Below are positions 3,781 through 38,248 of a DNA stretch of 38,660 nucleotides, one piece after another; within the stretch, counting starts at the first letter, position 1, and each line of letters begins with the position of its first letter. The translations under genes and the position numbers were made by a program. The stretch lies in the NCBI GenBank assembly GCA_026991135.1, contig JALXCD010000109.1:12284-50943 (forward strand), in the 5' to 3' direction. Source of the DNA: Deltaproteobacteria bacterium (GTDB lineage: Bacteria > Desulfobacterota > Dissulfuribacteria > Dissulfuribacterales > QOAL01). The notes under the pieces were generated by a model. That model saw nothing but the letters and a program-made list of their open reading frames with translations, did not search any database and had not been told where the DNA came from.

Positions 3781-3945
3781 TTCATAAAATTCCTGGCAGT
3801 CTTTTAGGAAAGGGATTTTGGAGTTTTGCCTTTTTTATGGAAAAATGGGCAAAGGGATAAAAATTTTATTGAAATCTTTCATGAAGACGGGAAACTTTCG
3901 AAAATTTTTTGAAATCAGTTTTACATGTTTAGGGTAAAAGCCAAA

Positions 3946-6762
3946 TCAACTGGATAACTTTTTCGCCAAATCATCCAAAAGCTCTTTGCATCCTTTTGTA
4001 TCCGGGTGTGCATCCCCCAAAGCTGAAAGCCATATATCATAGGCCTTCTGGGCTAGATCAAGGGCCTTTTCATAATGGTGCAGGTCCCTATAAACATTCG
4101 CTAAATTGAACTGCCGAATGGCCACGACAGGGTGATTGGGGCCAAAGTTCTTTAGATCAGACGCCAAGGCCTCTTTCAGTAAATCTCGAGCCCTTTTACA
4201 ATCGCCTAAAGCCTGGTAAACAGTCGCCAAATTGTTCTTTCGAACGGCCACCTGTGGATGATCCGGGCCAAAGTTCTTTAAATCAGACGCTAGGGCCTCC
4301 TCCAGTAATTTACGAGCCCTTTCATTATCGCCCAAATCCTCGTAAACTAGCGCCAAATTGGACTTTCGAACGGCCACCCGCGAATGATCCGGGCCAAAGT
4401 TCTCTAAATCAGACGCCAGGGACTCTTCCAGTAATTTACGTGCCCTTTTATATTCGCCTAAAGCCCAGTAAACAGTCGCCAAATTGTTCTTTCGAACGGC
4501 CACATCGGGATGATCCGGGCCAAAGTTCTTTAGATCAGATGCTAGGGATTCTTCCAGTAAATCTCGAGCCCTTTCATAATCGCCTAAAGCCCGGTAAACT
4601 AGCCCCAAATTGGACTTTTGAACGGCCACCCGCGAATGATCCGGGCCAAAGTTCTCTAAATCAGACGCCAGGGACTCTTCCAGTAATTTACGAGCCCTTT
4701 TATATTCGCCTAAAGCCCAGTAAACAGTCGCCAAATTGGACTTGTCAAGCGCCACATCGGGATGATCCGGGCCAAAGTTCTTTAGATCAGATGCCAGGGA
4801 TTCTTCCAGTAAATCTCGAGCCCTTTCATAGTCGCCTAAATCCCTGTAAACTAGCGCCAAATTGTTCTTTCGAACGGCCACATCGGGATGATCCGGACCA
4901 AAGTTCTTTAAATCAGACGCAAGGGCTTCTTCCAGTAATTTACGAGCCCTTTCATATTCGCCTAAATCCTCGTAAACTAGCGCCAAATTGGACTTTCGAA
5001 CGGCCACCCGCAGATGATCCGGGCCAAAGTTCTTTAGATCAGACGCAAGGGCCTCCTTCAGTAAATCACGGGCCCTTTTATAATCGCCCATTTCTCTATA
5101 AACCAATGCTAGGTTATTTTGTAAAAGGGCCTTTTGAGGGGATGTGTCATCTGGAATCCTTTTTAAGAGCGCCTCTCCAAAGGGAATGTATTGAAACTTA
5201 TCAACAGGATTGTCCTTGGTTTCATCAATATCCAACAAATCCGTTACAGACTCAATTAAAAACTTAAGGTCTTTTAAACCGACCTTGAGCTTTAGGGAAA
5301 GGGCTTCTGAAAGGACAGGGTGCATTTTATAGCGGTCACTTTCCTTTTCTTTCAATATAAAGCCCTTTTCATAAAGGCCTTCCAGGTAACCGGCAAAATC
5401 CTCCTCCCATTCCAGTTTCTCAACCTTTAAAAGGGAGGTAAGAAAATCGTATTCAATAAAGGCCGTGGGAAGGGCAGTAAACTGCTTTAATATGTAAATC
5501 TCCCTTTCATCAAGATTACTTAGATCAAAAATACTACTTAGGTAGCTTTTAATGCGTTCGATCTTTTTTTTGGAATGGAGCACACTGACATTTGCCTTGG
5601 CATCCAAGGTCAAGGCTTCCAATATCTTATCAAAGTCCCAGTGATTCCTACTGGATGACTTGGCCAAAATTTCAACAGTAAGGGTGTGCCTTTCCACCCT
5701 GTTTACAATGATGCGCACCTGGTCCCTTGCAAGTTCTGAATTATGCCTTTTAAAAAGGTCAATGGCCTCTTCTTCATCTAAAAAATCAAGCTCAATGATA
5801 TGAAAGCGGGGGATGCGCTCCCGGGAGATAACAAGAAGATGCCAGCCAGGCGGCCATGGCAATAGGTCATAATAACGGGCCAGTTCCTCCCTGGCATTGT
5901 CCAGGACCAGCAGCTTGGGCCCTTTGCTCTCCAGGGTGCGGAGCCTGTTTAAACAGGCCTCCATTTGGTCACTTGGAGGAAAATCTCTAAGGCCAAGGTT
6001 TTCCATCAGGGAAAAATTGGTTTTTATGGCCTCTTCAAAGGAATCTTCAATGGTAAGCCACAGGATGTGGTCATATTCTTCGTAGTATTCATCTACATAT
6101 ACGGCAGCAAGGGTTGTTTTCCCAATTCCACCCATCCCGTTTATAAGTGCGGTTACCCTGTTTTTTAAAAGGGCCTGGCGCAAATCTTCAAGGTCCCCTT
6201 CCCGGCCGACAATCTCCCTTTTGGGGACCCTTACAGGAGGGGTTATCTCCTTGGGAATTTTTGAAGGCTTGCCTTCAGACCCTTCAAGTATTTTAAAGAG
6301 GCTGTCTATTTTTAGAGAGATTTCCGTAAGTTTAAGGGCATTATTAAATATTTGGGATTTATAGTTTTCATCTACTTCCAGCTTTTTAAGCTCTTTATTA
6401 TCTGCAACCTTTTCATTAAAAATTTCAATAAACTTTTGTAATTGTTCCTTGGTAGGGGGGATAATATGGGGATTTTTTTTAAGTTCCCTTTTTAGTTTTT
6501 TCTCATCTATTTTGTAGCCGCCCTTGGCGACAAATCTAAATTTTAGAAGTTCATCAACAATGATCTGGGATTCGTAAAAGGGGAATCTATCGCCTTCATC
6601 TTTTATGGGATATTTCTTTTTGAATTCCTCAATGGTTTCATATATGACCTTGGTAAGATTGTCTTCAAAACTCTTTCTGTCTGAAAATATCCTGTCAAGG
6701 CCTTTATTAAAGGCATAGGTGGCAATGCTATTTGCAACTAGGGAGGCGACCGTATCAAGCAT
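3946..6762 (-). CDS. NB-ARC (STAND) NTPase with C-terminal array of kinesin-light-chain-like TPR repeats
   Basis: 938 aa; Walker A 'INGMGGIGKTTLA', Walker B 'PKLLVLDNA', followed by nine 42-aa TPR units (e.g. AVRKNNLALVYRDLGDYERARDLLEESLASDLKNFGPDHPDV). The ~160-aa N-terminal region has no motif I recognise. Confidence 0.93.
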   Translation of the reverse strand: MLDTVASLVANSIATYAFNKGLDRIFSDRKSFEDNLTKVIYETIEEFKKKYPIKDEGDRFPFYESQIIVDELLKFRFVAKGGYKIDEKKLKRELKKNPHIIPPTKEQLQKFIEIFNEKVADNKELKKLEVDENYKSQIFNNALKLTEISLKIDSLFKILEGSEGKPSKIPKEITPPVRVPKREIVGREGDLEDLRQALLKNRVTALINGMGGIGKTTLAAVYVDEYYEEYDHILWLTIEDSFEEAIKTNFSLMENLGLRDFPPSDQMEACLNRLRTLESKGPKLLVLDNAREELARYYDLLPWPPGWHLLVISRERIPRFHIIELDFLDEEEAIDLFKRHNSELARDQVRIIVNRVERHTLTVEILAKSSSRNHWDFDKILEALTLDAKANVSVLHSKKKIERIKSYLSSIFDLSNLDEREIYILKQFTALPTAFIEYDFLTSLLKVEKLEWEEDFAGYLEGLYEKGFILKEKESDRYKMHPVLSEALSLKLKVGLKDLKFLIESVTDLLDIDETKDNPVDKFQYIPFGEALLKRIPDDTSPQKALLQNNLALVYREMGDYKRARDLLKEALASDLKNFGPDHLRVAVRKSNLALVYEDLGEYERARKLLEEALASDLKNFGPDHPDVAVRKNNLALVYRDLGDYERARDLLEESLASDLKNFGPDHPDVALDKSNLATVYWALGEYKRARKLLEESLASDLENFGPDHSRVAVQKSNLGLVYRALGDYERARDLLEESLASDLKNFGPDHPDVAVRKNNLATVYWALGEYKRARKLLEESLASDLENFGPDHSRVAVRKSNLALVYEDLGDNERARKLLEEALASDLKNFGPDHPQVAVRKNNLATVYQALGDCKRARDLLKEALASDLKNFGPNHPVVAIRQFNLANVYRDLHHYEKALDLAQKAYDIWLSALGDAHPDTKGCKELLDDLAKKLSS
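4000..5137 (-). repeat. In-frame tandem 126-bp repeat (9 units) encoding TPRs
   Basis: 'gatccgggccaaagttct(t/c)ta(a/g)atcaga(c/t)gc' recurs every ~126 bp, with near-identical flanks, from about 4.1 to 5.05 kb. The terminal units are more diverged. Confidence 0.93.
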
Positions 6763-6979
6763 GGTAAAAAGATACCTTTATTTTGGCCCTAAAAAAGGTT
6801 TCAACATGCCCAAAAAAGCCATTTAGACACCCTTTTTACGATTTTTTCCTAAATTTTAACAAAAAATATTATAAACATTTTCTTATTTGATCATCAAGCG
6901 AAAGGATAAAGAAAAAAACGGGTTTAAGTTATTAGTGGCCCTGGCCCTTTTCAAAGGCTGTTGCAATATCTATCCATGA

Positions 6980-30219: not shown

Positions 30220-32565
30220 TCATTGATTTATTTGTTTTCTCATGTCATCAATAAATGCGTCAACATTAAATTCCTCATCATCCAGCAAACACCATCTCTG
30301 TATTCTAGTCATCCCTTCTGGTGCCACCCACTGCCCTGTAATCTTCTCAAGCTCCATATGTGCTCCACCATTTTGATATGAAGGATGGGCATACACCGTC
30401 ATGTAACCGCCATATAAAAACTTGTTCCAATAATCCCGTATCGATGGTCCGCCTGGAAGGCGGATGCGCAGCCACTTGTTACTGAAAAATTCCATAATGA
30501 TACGGCCATCCCAATGTTTCTTCACCCATTCACCATCAACCGTGCGGCTATATGCACCGTTGCCTCCAAGATCCAGTACGTAATTACCCTTGCGCGGACC
30601 CTTTTCAGCACGGATAAAACTGAAATACATGAACTTTTTAGGCCACATGGCAGGATATTTTCCATCGGCGAACATGACCTGAATGCCACTTGTGGCTTTG
30701 GGATCGAATTTCCAGGTCAGCCGGTAGAATGCCTGATGGATACGCCGATCCACATTAAAGGGCTTAATGGGTTTCGAAGATATTAGGCCACACTTTCCCC
30801 ACCAGTTCACGTTTGCTTTCACATCGGCCACCAGTTTTCTGTCCTGATAATGAGCGCATTGTTTTGCATCAAATCCGACAGCCGCCGGTTCGAACCATTC
30901 CCCTGGGCTGCCGTTGAAAAAGGTCTTGACCGGCAGAGGCGGCACTCCCGGTGCAGGTTTCGGTTCCTGAAGCGGAGCGCCTGGTCTGCGCCTGAGGGTG
31001 ATTTTGGAAAGCGCCATTTTTACCGGCTGGCCGGCCTTGTCTGGTTGAGAATAGACCATTAGGCGAATTCCTGTCCCCTCCTTTAACTCATTCCAAGCTA
31101 TAGGTTCTTGAGGTAGACCAGGCGCCTGGAATATCATCCCTACTGGGGTCAGGTGAATAAGCAGGCTTTTTGGTGCATCGGGGGGCGTAATTACGTCAAA
31201 AATCGTTTTTTTGAATAAATCTTTTGTCAGCGTAGCGTGAGCTCGACCGTCTACTGTTTTGCGCCAGTGAAAAATAAGACTGGGGTAACCAGGGTCGTTT
31301 CCATTTATGACACCATGCCTAATAAAAGCAACAGTAAATCCCGTAGTACGGACAGGATCAAAGCTAAACATTAAGGTCTGTTCCGCCCCTTTCCCGAAAT
31401 TGTCCAGCCATACCAGCGGTTGCGGAGAACAGATGCCCACCATCCCCCACCAAGACTTTGGTGGTACCTCCACTACTAGGCCATCCTCTGAAAGACGGGC
31501 GTGACGGGAAAAATCGCCACCGGCCGCATTGTATCTGCTCCATAACCGTCCCAGACGCCCATTTGCGAATAGTGTCAGTTCATTTTCTTGTAACAGGAAG
31601 GCATCAGGTTCGGGTAGCTTTTCCCATGGAAGTTCCTCTAAAAGTATATCTTTTAGCGCCAGATGGGCTGGTTTACCTGCCTTTGGTGCATGAGCGAGCA
31701 CCAATATTCTGAAAGCCGAATGAACAGCTTCGTCTGGCATTACACCTTGTAATAAGAGCCTATCTTTTTGATCCCTTACAACAATCTCTCCATCCGGGAA
31801 CCGCAAAACCTGTAATTTAGCAAGGCTTCCAGGAGCAATAAATAGGGAATCTACTTTTTCCCGCCTGACAAACAAACTCAGTTCTTGTTTATCGGCCTGT
31901 TTTCCCAAGCCGATCCTGAATTCATGTGCCCACCATTCATCCTGCTGATTGTGCGAAGACTGAGGCACGAAAGAGATGACATAGCCATCATCCGCTCTTG
32001 ACAATAGAGAGAATGTAAGTTTTTGTACCCTTTTGGAAGATGCTAGTAGCAGAGGCACTCTCGAAGCAATACCTGTTTTTCCCCAATTGTTTCCAGCGGG
32101 AACTTCGACCTCCAACACCCCTTTTTTGATTTTTGCAAATTTTTTGAAGTTCCCTCCGGCTGAGGCATAGGGTTGCCAGCTATCGGTCATCTGACCCTGG
32201 AACAACCACCGTTGGGAAGCAGGTTTTGATGTGGAAGATTTGGCGTTAAAAAAAAGATTGCGCAAGGCCTTAAGTCGCTTCAGCCTATCATCACGCTCGG
32301 GTAGTGGTTGAATTCGCTGAGCGGCTTCCAGTGCCTTTATAGCCGCATCAATATCGTCGTCTATTATCGCCTGCTTTACCTTCTCCATGTAACAATTCAC
32401 ATCATTACCACAAAAATCCGCTGCTGCGACCTTTATGGCCAAGAATGCATGGAAAAAGATAATCACGATTCCCATTTTTATTGAAAAAGCGAAACAAGTG
32501 TGCAGTGGTACTAGTTTTATCCCTACTAGTTTATGTCCTCGGTAAAAAACATTTGATTGTTTCAT
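30220..32565 (-). CDS. Uncharacterised exported protein with three diverged ~213-aa internal repeats
   Basis: 781-aa intact ORF; hydrophobic signal 'MGIVIIFFHAFLAIKVAAA'; 'DFCGNDVNCYMEKVKQAIIDDDIDAAIKALEAAQRIQP' helical segment; three repeats anchored on NNWGKTGIAS / SWWGMVGICS / NWWGKCGLISS. Confidence 0.82.
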   Translation of the reverse strand: MKQSNVFYRGHKLVGIKLVPLHTCFAFSIKMGIVIIFFHAFLAIKVAAADFCGNDVNCYMEKVKQAIIDDDIDAAIKALEAAQRIQPLPERDDRLKRLKALRNLFFNAKSSTSKPASQRWLFQGQMTDSWQPYASAGGNFKKFAKIKKGVLEVEVPAGNNWGKTGIASRVPLLLASSKRVQKLTFSLLSRADDGYVISFVPQSSHNQQDEWWAHEFRIGLGKQADKQELSLFVRREKVDSLFIAPGSLAKLQVLRFPDGEIVVRDQKDRLLLQGVMPDEAVHSAFRILVLAHAPKAGKPAHLALKDILLEELPWEKLPEPDAFLLQENELTLFANGRLGRLWSRYNAAGGDFSRHARLSEDGLVVEVPPKSWWGMVGICSPQPLVWLDNFGKGAEQTLMFSFDPVRTTGFTVAFIRHGVINGNDPGYPSLIFHWRKTVDGRAHATLTKDLFKKTIFDVITPPDAPKSLLIHLTPVGMIFQAPGLPQEPIAWNELKEGTGIRLMVYSQPDKAGQPVKMALSKITLRRRPGAPLQEPKPAPGVPPLPVKTFFNGSPGEWFEPAAVGFDAKQCAHYQDRKLVADVKANVNWWGKCGLISSKPIKPFNVDRRIHQAFYRLTWKFDPKATSGIQVMFADGKYPAMWPKKFMYFSFIRAEKGPRKGNYVLDLGGNGAYSRTVDGEWVKKHWDGRIIMEFFSNKWLRIRLPGGPSIRDYWNKFLYGGYMTVYAHPSYQNGGAHMELEKITGQWVAPEGMTRIQRWCLLDDEEFNVDAFIDDMRKQINQ

Positions 32566-34958: not shown

Positions 34959-37322
34959 TTATGTGGTCAAAACCCTGTATATTTCCGGTACCCGCTTATG
35001 AAGCAGCCTTACATCAGGGACAAATATATAGTTTGCAGCCCCATAAAGCCTTGGCAGGTAACTTCTTGCCTCCTTGTCAATGGTGATGCAAAATGGTCTT
35101 ACTCCATACTGCCGTGCCTCAAAAAGGGCCATTCTGGTATCCTCTATGGCATAGGGTCCTTTGTATTCATCATAGTCCTCTGGCTTCCCGTCGCTTAGAA
35201 CCAAAAGTATCTTGATCCTGGCCTCCACTTCCTTGAGCCTATTTGTTGAATGTCTTATGGCTGGCCCCATCCTGGTATAATCCTTGGCGGTAATTCCAAT
35301 AATCCGTTCCTTTACCGTGGTAGTTAACCCTTCATTAAAATCCTTTATGACAAAGTATTGGCAGCCTGTCCGTCTCATACCGGAAAATCCGTAGATTCCG
35401 TATTGATCCCCAACAAGTTCAATGGCATGAGTTAAAAGGACAAGGGATTCCTTGATGGCTTGATTTACCCAGCCCTCTGTTGAGGCGGACATATCAACCA
35501 AAAAAAGGACCGCAATATCTCTTTTGGCCTGATTCAATCTATAATAGAGCCTTTCAGTAGGACTTAGCCTTGCCATAAGGTCTGTATATGCCTCAACATA
35601 TGCGTCTATATCTATTTCTTGCCCGTCCTTTTGCCTCTTTTCACACCTGAAATCCTGACGCATAAGCTCGAACTGTCTTCTTAGGGTTTCCACCTGGCCC
35701 TTGTATTTTCTAAGGGTTGTCTCTATGAAATTTCCAGATGCCCTGCTCGAATGCATCTCTTTTACAGTGCACCAGTTTTCCCGGTAATTTCCCCGCCTAA
35801 AATCCCATTCCGGGTAACTGAAGAATAAAAAGGCAGGCCCTTCATCCTTTTTGGAATCCAGTAAAAGGGTGGGGTCATAAAGACCTGTAGCCAGATCTAG
35901 GGTGGTTGAGACATAGGAGCTTGGAATCCTTCCAAGGTCCTTCATTATCTCCCTTCCAACCTTTTCAAGTTTTTCTAAAAGGTCCCTATTTTCGTGAAGG
36001 GTAATGTGTTCACCATCTAAAAAACAATCCTTTTTGTCCCTGCAAAGGCCCTTTTGAAACACCATTGCCAGTGCTGACTCCATATCGTCTGCCGTGAAAG
36101 GCATATTTTTAAGCTCTTCTGGGCCTTTCTCCCTGTCTTTTTTAATTGATCCTTGGCCACGGGACTTTACAATGAGGGCTCCGAGGATTTCGATAAATCT
36201 CTTTTCAAGCCTCTTTCGTCTTTCTAAAAGCCTTATCTCCAGCCTTGAAAGGTCTATTGTGCCCACATAAAGAAAAAGGTCCTTAAAGGGCATAAGATCA
36301 AGGCTGTAAGGGCCTTCGAGTAAAGATTTTAAGGTCTTAAGGGAGTCAATATTGGTGCTTTCCCTGTCAAGAAGCCTTTTAACATGAGCTCTTAACAGTC
36401 TATCTTCAGGAAGAAATTGGGAATCGTAGTCATTTAAGATAAAACGGGCAATTTGAGAAATGGCGCCTTTTTCTTTAAAAGACCCCTTTAAGGTGATTAG
36501 CCTGGATAGGTTCTTTTTAAAGGATGAAATATCCCTTTTAAATCCATTAAAGTCTTCTTCCAGCCTTTTTTCTATCCTTATCGTCTCTATTACAGAGTAA
36601 AGGGTTAAGATATCAAGCTTTTTATACCTTTCAGAAAGGATATTCAGTAAGTGGACAATACCAGGTCTTTCTATTTCATTTTTAAGTTCTTCCAGTTCGG
36701 GAAAAACCTCCATTAAAAGGCCCTTTGGGGCAAGAAAGCTATTAAGGCGTATCTGGCCAATCTTATGGATGGCGCACACCTTTAAAAAAAGGATGTTTTC
36801 CTCAAAACTTTTGAACCTTGAAAAGGTCCTTGGAAGATAAATGGTTTCGCTGTCTGTAAAGGGCACGTCTGAAGGCTCAAAGCAAATGGCCCTTTCCGTA
36901 AGCCCGGAGGCCAGAATGGATAGCTTTGCAGCCACGTCTTCAAGGGTTGCAACACGTCTTGAATTTCCAAAGGAAAGGGCGGTTTCCTGGGGCCTTGATA
37001 AAAACTCAGTGGCAGGATGAAGCCCCTGGGCCTCATATATTGAAAGGGCCTTTGTAACCCACTCTTCCATCTGGTCCAGATCAAGATACTTGAGGGCCTT
37101 TGAGCAATTTTCCATGAAGCTAAAGGCCAAAAGGTCAGATACCGAGCCTGAAATGAGCCTTACAAACCTAAGGATCGGCCCTATCTTTTCATTTGGAATC
37201 GGCCTAAGAAATTCAACGGCATTTTCAACATGACATGAGCCTATTGTATCGGTGTAAAAGATCTGGATGAGGGCATTTTTAAGGGCCTCTTCACGCCTTT
37301 TTTCCTTGGGAGTAATGGTCAT
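34959..37322 (-). CDS. Large VWA-domain protein, NorD/CbbO type
   Basis: 787 aa; C-terminal VWA with MIDAS 'VLFLVDMSASTEGW' and 'ILLVLSDGKPEDYDEYKGPYAIEDTRMALFEAR'; directly downstream of a NorQ/CbbQ-like ATPase. Confidence 0.88.
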   Translation of the reverse strand: MTITPKEKRREEALKNALIQIFYTDTIGSCHVENAVEFLRPIPNEKIGPILRFVRLISGSVSDLLAFSFMENCSKALKYLDLDQMEEWVTKALSIYEAQGLHPATEFLSRPQETALSFGNSRRVATLEDVAAKLSILASGLTERAICFEPSDVPFTDSETIYLPRTFSRFKSFEENILFLKVCAIHKIGQIRLNSFLAPKGLLMEVFPELEELKNEIERPGIVHLLNILSERYKKLDILTLYSVIETIRIEKRLEEDFNGFKRDISSFKKNLSRLITLKGSFKEKGAISQIARFILNDYDSQFLPEDRLLRAHVKRLLDRESTNIDSLKTLKSLLEGPYSLDLMPFKDLFLYVGTIDLSRLEIRLLERRKRLEKRFIEILGALIVKSRGQGSIKKDREKGPEELKNMPFTADDMESALAMVFQKGLCRDKKDCFLDGEHITLHENRDLLEKLEKVGREIMKDLGRIPSSYVSTTLDLATGLYDPTLLLDSKKDEGPAFLFFSYPEWDFRRGNYRENWCTVKEMHSSRASGNFIETTLRKYKGQVETLRRQFELMRQDFRCEKRQKDGQEIDIDAYVEAYTDLMARLSPTERLYYRLNQAKRDIAVLFLVDMSASTEGWVNQAIKESLVLLTHAIELVGDQYGIYGFSGMRRTGCQYFVIKDFNEGLTTTVKERIIGITAKDYTRMGPAIRHSTNRLKEVEARIKILLVLSDGKPEDYDEYKGPYAIEDTRMALFEARQYGVRPFCITIDKEARSYLPRLYGAANYIFVPDVRLLHKRVPEIYRVLTT

Positions 37323-37324
37323 GG

Positions 37325-38134
37325 TTAAAAGACTGCCTTTATCATCTCTTTTAAACCGTTTAATAGCTCTTCATCATCGGTAAGGGGCTGACAGATTGCA
37401 ACCTCACAGGCAAGATTCACATCAATACCAGATTTTATAAGCTTTCCTGCATGGATTAAAAGCCTTGTGCTTGCACCCTCTTGAAGGCCCTGCTCCTTTA
37501 GCCTTCTTGTCATTCTTCCAAGCTTTACAAGATTTGCCGAAAGCTCATGGTCAATCCCTGCCTCTTTCTCAACGATCTTTTTTTCATGCTCTTCATCGGA
37601 GTATCTGAAATCTATGGCAAGAAATCTCTGTCTTGTGCTGGGCTTAAGGTCCTTGAGGACGCTTTGATAGCCTGGGTTATAAGAGATTACAAGCATGAAT
37701 TCCCTTGGGGCATCAAGAATTACTCCAAGCTTTTCCATGGGAAGTTTTCTCCTGTCATCTGCCAGGGGATGAATGACAACCGTGGTGTCCTTTCTTGCCT
37801 CCACCACTTCATCAAGATAACATATTCCCCCATTTTTTACCGCAAGGGTTAGGGGGCCGTCCATCCAGATTGTCTCGCCCCCTTTTATAAGATAACGCCC
37901 CACAAGATCACTTGTGGAAAGATCGTCATGGCAAGATACGGTAAAAAGAGGCCGTTTCAGCCTCCAGGCCATATATTCCATAAACCTCGTCTTTCCACAG
38001 CCGGTCGGCCCTTTCAAAAGTAGCGGAAGGCAGTGCCTAAAGGCGATCTCAGCAAGCTCAATCTCATTACCAAGGGGAAGGTAAAAGGGTTCCCTTGTTA
38101 TAAAAAAGCTTGAAAGTTTCTGCTCAGACTCCAT
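37325..38134 (-). CDS. MoxR-family AAA+ ATPase, NorQ/CbbQ type
   Basis: Probable start MESEQKLSSFFITREPFYLPLGNE (ORF extends to 38197); 'LLLKGPTGCGKTRFMEYMAWRL', 'HDDLSTSDLVGRYLIKGGETIWMDGPLTLAVKNGGICYLDEVVEARKDTTVVIHPLADDRRKL'. Confidence 0.92.
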   Translation of the reverse strand: MESEQKLSSFFITREPFYLPLGNEIELAEIAFRHCLPLLLKGPTGCGKTRFMEYMAWRLKRPLFTVSCHDDLSTSDLVGRYLIKGGETIWMDGPLTLAVKNGGICYLDEVVEARKDTTVVIHPLADDRRKLPMEKLGVILDAPREFMLVISYNPGYQSVLKDLKPSTRQRFLAIDFRYSDEEHEKKIVEKEAGIDHELSANLVKLGRMTRRLKEQGLQEGASTRLLIHAGKLIKSGIDVNLACEVAICQPLTDDEELLNGLKEMIKAVF

Positions 38135-38248
38135 TTGTGCCCCTTTTGACTTATTACTTTTTAGATAAAATTTATCATATTTATATTGATTTTTCAATAA
38201 AAAAGAATTATAATGTTTTTAAATATTAGGTATCAAAAGGAGGATGAC

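Follow-up and report, generated by a model that had tools for sequence, protein, structure and literature searches.

In fungal NLR proteins whose TPRs have high internal conservation (an identity of 85% or more between repeats, over 100 amino acids or more), the positions that vary and are under positive selection lie on the concave side of the repeat array, as modelled on the kinesin light chain KLC2 (PMC4986451). For TPRs in general, Magliery and Regan placed the hypervariable concave face at positions 2, 5, 9, 12, 13, 33 and 34 of the unit, and peptide contacts are made by positions 2, 5, 6, 9, 12 and 13 (PMC1261162). In KLC1, the residues in contact with cargo peptides are K340, N343/N344, L347, N351, V305, K309, R266 and N301/N302; the Asn pairs bind the main chain of the peptide, and the choice of N or S at one site (KLC1 N343, KLC2 S328) sets the specificity of the isoforms (PMC6214655). 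As to the Avs proteins, Avs1-Avs4 are stated to use nuclease effectors (PMC12931631).

In the following, we analyse a gene that lies in a stretch of 38,660 nucleotides of DNA (the window) from a Deltaproteobacteria bacterium (GCA_026991135.1, contig JALXCD010000109.1). We will argue that it encodes a single-gene NLR-like STAND protein, most likely a receptor in the defence against phages or other non-self, with a TPR array as the sensor and with selection acting on the groove of that array. We hold this reading to be probable, and weigh it below against four others.

Results and Discussion

The features of the gene are collected in Table 1. In the full protein, the NB-ARC domain scores 32 bits against a cut-off of 23.5 (Pfam PF00931; 34.6 bits when the region is searched in isolation), and nine TPR_10 and seven TPR_12 stretches are found, all of them C-terminal to NB-ARC. 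A P-loop NB-ARC core is thus followed by C-terminal superstructure-forming repeats, which is the STAND/NLR-like architecture. Residues 342-530 are without a Pfam match of their own. In the AlphaFold model, pLDDT is about 81-94 over most of the TPR array, with helix pairs every 42 residues, and the NB-ARC part is of low confidence. A 337-aa open frame runs antisense to the array (window 4254-5267, plus strand); it is open because the repeated coding frame leaves no stops on the other strand, and is probably a by-product of this stop-free repeat.

Table 1. Coordinates of the gene, its parts and its insertion site (positions in the window).
Feature	Positions	Strand	Evidence
Entire gene; STAND/NLR-like protein of 938 aa with an Avs2-type N-terminal domain, NB-ARC and a KLC-type TPR array at the C-terminus	3946-6762	-	Intact ORF, ATG at 6762; NB-ARC and TPR_12/TPR_10 pass the Pfam cut-off
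N-terminal helical domain, aa 1-165, common to Avs2 proteins; putative effector/recruitment module	6268-6762	-	phmmer to Avs2 PDB 9o4e_A, six-member alignment, AlphaFold
NB-ARC NTPase core, aa 188-341, P-loop GMGGIGKTT	5740-6201	-	Pfam PF00931
Remaining NOD and linker, aa 342-530; presumed helical/winged-helix	5173-5739	-	Conserved in Ignavibacteriales homologue
TPR array, aa 545-933; nine units of 42 aa when set in TPR register, of which the ninth is degenerate; putative sensor	3964-5130	-	TRF, unit alignment, AlphaFold helix pairs, KLC1/KLC2 matches
Units 2-7 (register of the sequence-only reading), most homogenised stretch, holding the two-unit block duplication	4216-4971	-	Lag-2 pairs 93.7% DNA identity
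Unit 1 (register of the sequence-only reading); its first six bases, 5097-5092, are TPR positions 12-13 and recur every 126 bp downstream	4972-5097	-	
Insertion between lepA and lepB, approximate extent, this gene alone inside	3781-6960	.	lepA-lepB spacing compared with congeners

The gene is the only one between lepA and lepB, which are here 3,223 bp apart. In the congener G004, whose neighbouring genes are 97-98% identical to those here, the spacing is 55 bp; the two genes are close together in five further congeners as well, and the gene is absent from this place in six congeners. The NOD half is absent from 60 relatives, including eight congeners. The spacing and the absence from relatives thus make it an accessory single-gene insertion, which is the usual behaviour of a defence gene, although not proof of one. 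At the edges of the insertion, we saw no transposase, integrase or clear target duplication. The neighbours, named from sequence, are pilM/pilN-like, lepA, lepB, DnaJ-like and aspartokinase-like genes, so that the context is one of housekeeping genes and not a defence island. Elsewhere in the window, a vWA-domain protein adjoins a CbbQ/NorQ-type AAA ATPase (34959-38197, minus strand) in a MoxR-vWA-like pair, and a 781-aa ORF (30220-32565, minus strand) has no Pfam match at E 1e-5.

A direct protein search of GTDB genomes confirmed no ortholog, and homologues were reached only through alignment of the N-terminal domain; in 395 genomes of the phylum the matches were at the level of NB-ARC only. 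Phage records gave no match to the N-terminal domain and only weak Wolbachia-phage matches to the TPR part, and viral contigs gave no match. PADLOC returned nothing for the full 938-aa protein.

The N-terminal domain is the part that links the protein to a known defence family. Residues 24-155 match Avs2 of PDB 9o4e_A with E=1.1e-12 (phmmer). The AlphaFold model of the domain is mostly helical (mean pLDDT 76), and a fold search of the PDB with it gave no significant match, 9o4e included. The alignment-based scan yielded five further members, giving six in all; two of the five are full-length Avs2 and one is Avs2-related according to PADLOC (up to 1,628 bits), and the domain is conserved in the Avs2 homologues L064 and L065. 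The Avs2-related member is an 880-aa protein of Cellulophaga (L062:5893-8535), and a fourth one is a 458-aa protein of a Bacteroidales MAG that reads as NACHT-like (L063:2707-4083). The domain is shuffled among STAND proteins; it may act as an effector or a recruitment module. Here, this poorly understood domain sits on an NB-ARC/TPR chassis, which suggests that it is portable as a module. The fifth member, encoded in an Ignavibacteriales MAG, is homologous to the entire NOD half (41% over 580 columns) and runs off the end of its contig inside its array; immediately upstream of it lies a gene (L061:1214-2332) whose product joins a NusG-like domain to an Mrr-type restriction nuclease.

We now consider the repeats themselves. 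The sequence-only reading had described nine 42-aa units, and these are present at residues 556-933 (window 5097-3964, minus strand). The pairs of residues that it listed after 'VY' (RE, ED, RD, WA, RA, WA, ED, QA, RD) and the residues after RAR in units 1-8 (D,K,D,K,D,K,K,D) are exactly those in the protein. It should be pointed out that in the conventional TPR register, used below, the array starts at residue 545 (window 5130) and its units are numbered 0-8; unit n of the sequence-only reading straddles the boundary between units n-1 and n. The scaffold had been called almost invariant, which is correct for the first eight units as then numbered but not for the last (31-48% protein identity). 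Variation had also been ascribed to a few positions; it is indeed concentrated, but 17 of the 42 columns, rather than three, vary in the seven core units.

Leaving out the last one, any two units share 69-93% of their protein and 71-94% of their DNA sequence; for units 1-7, the DNA identity is 79-94%. Seven or eight units are thus homogenised and the ninth is degenerate. Tandem Repeats Finder detects the 126-bp period, but the 252- and 378-bp periods score higher, and the array therefore has a higher-order structure. The closest pairs are two units apart, 2/4 and 3/5, each with 93.7% DNA identity, which marks a duplicated two-unit block. Most of the differences within these pairs change the amino acid and lie in the N-terminal half of helix A, where codons swapped at several bases (AAC/TCC, GAC/CGA) stand next to others that are unchanged. 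The four-gamete rule is violated in 105 of 190 informative site pairs, and short tracts have therefore been exchanged between units, unless mutation was recurrent. Since the longest exact stretch shared at unit spacing is 73 bp, short reads could have collapsed the array in assembly, though they need not have done so.

The D/K switch, which had been taken as variation of the ligand surface together with the residues after 'VY', does not fit that role. It is TPR position 22, in helix B and outside the groove, and by itself is not unusually variable (P=0.21). In units 0-7, it goes in all eight cases with whether codon 32, ten residues away, is CTA or the synonymous TTA, and in seven with CGA or CGT at codon 21. 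This concordance with synonymous codons makes it look like a passenger, and it has probably hitchhiked on the two-unit block duplication.

For the two residues after 'VY', on the other hand, the assignment to a ligand-contacting surface stands: they are TPR positions 12 and 13, on the concave face together with 2, 5 and 9 (PMC1261162), where the face is assigned by register and by alignment to KLC1. These five positions were taken as the test set, in units 1-7. All five vary (hypergeometric P=0.007), and they hold 15 of the 42 minority states, with 5 expected (P=0.002 over all columns), as the suggestion of variation concentrated at certain sites would have it. When only exposed columns are permuted, exposure being taken from the TPR consensus, the value is P=0.007. 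It is P=0.005 for a set that includes positions 33 and 34 as well, and P=0.03 for the KLC1 contact positions as the set; the sets overlap, and the P values are not independent tests. The comparison of codons across units that had been proposed gives pN/pS of 2.59 at the five groove positions and 0.39 elsewhere (Nei-Gojobori counts), which is descriptive and not a valid formal test of selection, because seven units are few and recombine. Position 5 switches between N and S, position 12 is R, E, W or Q, and Asn6 never varies in this array.

The contacts can be followed further in the kinesin light chains. KLC1 and KLC2 are the best PDB sequence matches of the array, KLC structures are among its best fold matches, and the alignment to KLC1 is gap-free over more than four units. 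By this alignment, K340, N343/N344, L347 and N351 of KLC1 correspond to TPR positions 2, 5/6, 9 and 13, and V305, K309, R266 and N301/N302 to positions 9, 13, 12 and 5/6. The isoform-determining site (N343 in KLC1, S328 in KLC2) falls at position 5, where N and S also alternate here. The KLC structures provide a contact map at the level of residues, and each variable residue of the array would therefore be a testable specificity position, should the groove reading hold.

We have also considered other bacterial arrays, which were picked from the best matches and not randomly. Under the five-position test, a CHAT-NB-ARC-TPR array on a Haliscomenobacter plasmid has P=0.0002 (exposed columns only, 0.0009), one of Herpetosiphon P=0.004 (0.012) and that of a second STAND gene in the present genome P=0.012 (0.040). 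A Streptomyces array is without groove concentration (P=0.42; 0.47). Three of these four arrays thus show it under both nulls; a further array of four units, in G357, lies outside this count (P=0.026, all columns). Asn6 is invariant in 46 of 46 units of five arrays, namely the present one and the comparison arrays except G357. The groove reading has the support of the register, of the statistics, of a structural homologue and of the independent arrays. The pattern recurs in several more bacterial STAND-TPR proteins and, if the reading is right, could be used to find diversifying bacterial sensors by sequence alone. In the open-access literature, we found no paper on groove-focused variation in bacterial TPR STAND arrays.

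The second STAND gene is of the CHAT-NACHT-TPR type (G000:C132:6829-10602; L050:2827-6603, minus strand), with a homogenised 45-aa TPR array, and a KAP-family NTPase gene adjoins it on the opposite strand. Its ortholog in the congener G007 (L074, G007:C50:1-3501) has two NLG-type units against ten in this genome, and its NACHT region appears to be frameshifted, as in a pseudogene or by an error of assembly. This ortholog appears to show array turnover within the genus, for the related gene only.

The following mechanism would account for these observations. The C-terminal TPRs form a right-handed solenoid whose concave groove would bind a ligand, probably a peptide segment in extended form or else the surface of a protein. 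The invariant Asn6 of each unit would hold the backbone, and residues 2, 5, 9, 12 and 13 would set the side-chain preference. Binding would free the NB-ARC core from a closed ADP form, leading to oligomerisation, which in turn may bring together or activate the Avs2-type helical N-terminal domains. The array itself evolves through the duplication of blocks of one or two units and through short exchanges between units, with a homogeneous scaffold as the outcome, while selection would favour change at the groove residues.

An array of this kind could also arise by plain concerted evolution without diversifying selection, from recent duplicates in which the groove residues vary as exposed and tolerant sites while the scaffold is constrained. 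The visible two-unit block duplication fits this, as do the full concordance of D/K at position 22 with the synonymous marker at codon 32 and the fact that the groove holds the most variable TPR positions generally (PMC1261162). However, the enrichment of the groove persists among exposed columns, its pN/pS is above neutral, and what separates the units of pairs 2/4 and 3/5 is for the most part a change of amino acid, multi-base swaps included; we consider this explanation unlikely, though one to be taken seriously. Some of the variable codons, next to unchanged neighbours, would fit an A-bearing template (AAC/TCC at position 5, NNG at position 12), as expected if a diversity-generating retroelement acted on the array by adenine-directed mutagenesis from a template repeat. 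Yet the draft genome, 97% complete, contains no reverse transcriptase (PF00078; controls positive), the repeat DNA is found nowhere else in it, and some variable columns of groove codons lack A (base 1 of codon 2 and base 2 of codon 9). With neither the enzyme nor a second repeat copy, a retroelement is therefore so unlikely that we give it next to no weight.

The remaining two alternatives concern the function of the protein. AfsR and MalT are NB-ARC/STAND-TPR proteins, and the AfsR NOD and TPR_MalT models match weakly, so that a transcriptional or metabolic regulator of the MalT or AfsR kind might be envisaged in place of a defence receptor. Against this, Pfam finds no DNA-binding domain at either end of the 938-aa protein, the N-terminal domain is that of Avs2, and the 60 relatives, with the eight congeners among them, lack the protein; regulators of the MalT or AfsR type are also not known for homogenised repeats. 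We regard such a role as very doubtful. The closest match in pattern is to fungal NLRs, a group that includes incompatibility loci, and this would suit a receptor for self/non-self (kin) recognition or developmental death, like the heterokaryon-incompatibility NLRs of fungi. But no secreted, contact-dependent or cell-fusion partner is found near this lone gene in its housekeeping locus, and the N-terminal domain points to phage defence; kin recognition is accordingly improbable in our view. A receptor for phage or other non-self defence is thus the reading that we carry into the comparison below.

Comparison with known systems

FxsT, the TPR protein of the FxSxx-COOH system (NF040586), is likewise an NB-ARC-type ATPase with TPRs, and the present protein scores above its NCBIfam cut-off; the best-matching stretch, however, lies in the TPR units. 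No FxSxx peptide, radical-SAM/maturase or vWA partner lies beside the gene.

With KLC1 and KLC2, the array shares 42-aa KLC-type TPRs that align without gaps, Asn at position 6 and N/S at position 5. It differs in being a putative sensor of an NTPase, in having units that are far more alike than those of KLC, and in a groove composition that changes from unit to unit. The protein of Haliscomenobacter hydrossis plasmid pHALHY02 (L054) is also an NB-ARC-like STAND protein with a homogenised 42-aa TPR array, a very similar unit consensus and identical variable positions, but its N-terminal domain reads as CHAT-like and not as Avs2-type.

Avs2 (AVAST type 2; PDB 9o4e; PADLOC Avs2) has in common with the present protein the STAND architecture and the homologous N-terminal helical domain (aa 24-155). 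The core here is NB-ARC rather than the Avs2 NTPase, the C-terminal sensor is a KLC-type TPR array rather than that of Avs2, and the length is 938 aa as against about 1,400-1,500, with no PADLOC Avs2 match. By its N-terminal domain the protein belongs with Avs2, and by its NTPase and C-terminal sensor it does not.

A bolder view is that the units of bacterial KLC-type TPR sensors can be read as a code, with Asn6 for the backbone and positions 5/9/12/13 for side chains, in which duplication and shuffling of units rewrite specificity. They would then be a natural counterpart, for protein recognition, of TALE repeats, and in the present protein would be joined to an Avs2-type response domain. We consider this a long shot.

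The direct precedent is provided by the fungal NLRs of high internal conservation, such as the NB-ARC/TPR protein Pa_2_10340 of Podospora anserina (PMC4986451), and judged by its sequence the present protein seems to be their bacterial counterpart. Both have NB-ARC followed by near-identical TPR (PF13374) units that vary on the concave face. The present case is a bacterial single gene in which an Avs2-type N-terminal domain replaces the fungal effector domains, and its mean unit identity (75-82% in protein; closest pairs 90-93%) is below the fungal threshold of 85% over 100 aa. If the correspondence is true, bacteria, like fungi, keep an immune sensor that is stable yet changeable, by homogenising its scaffold and varying its groove.
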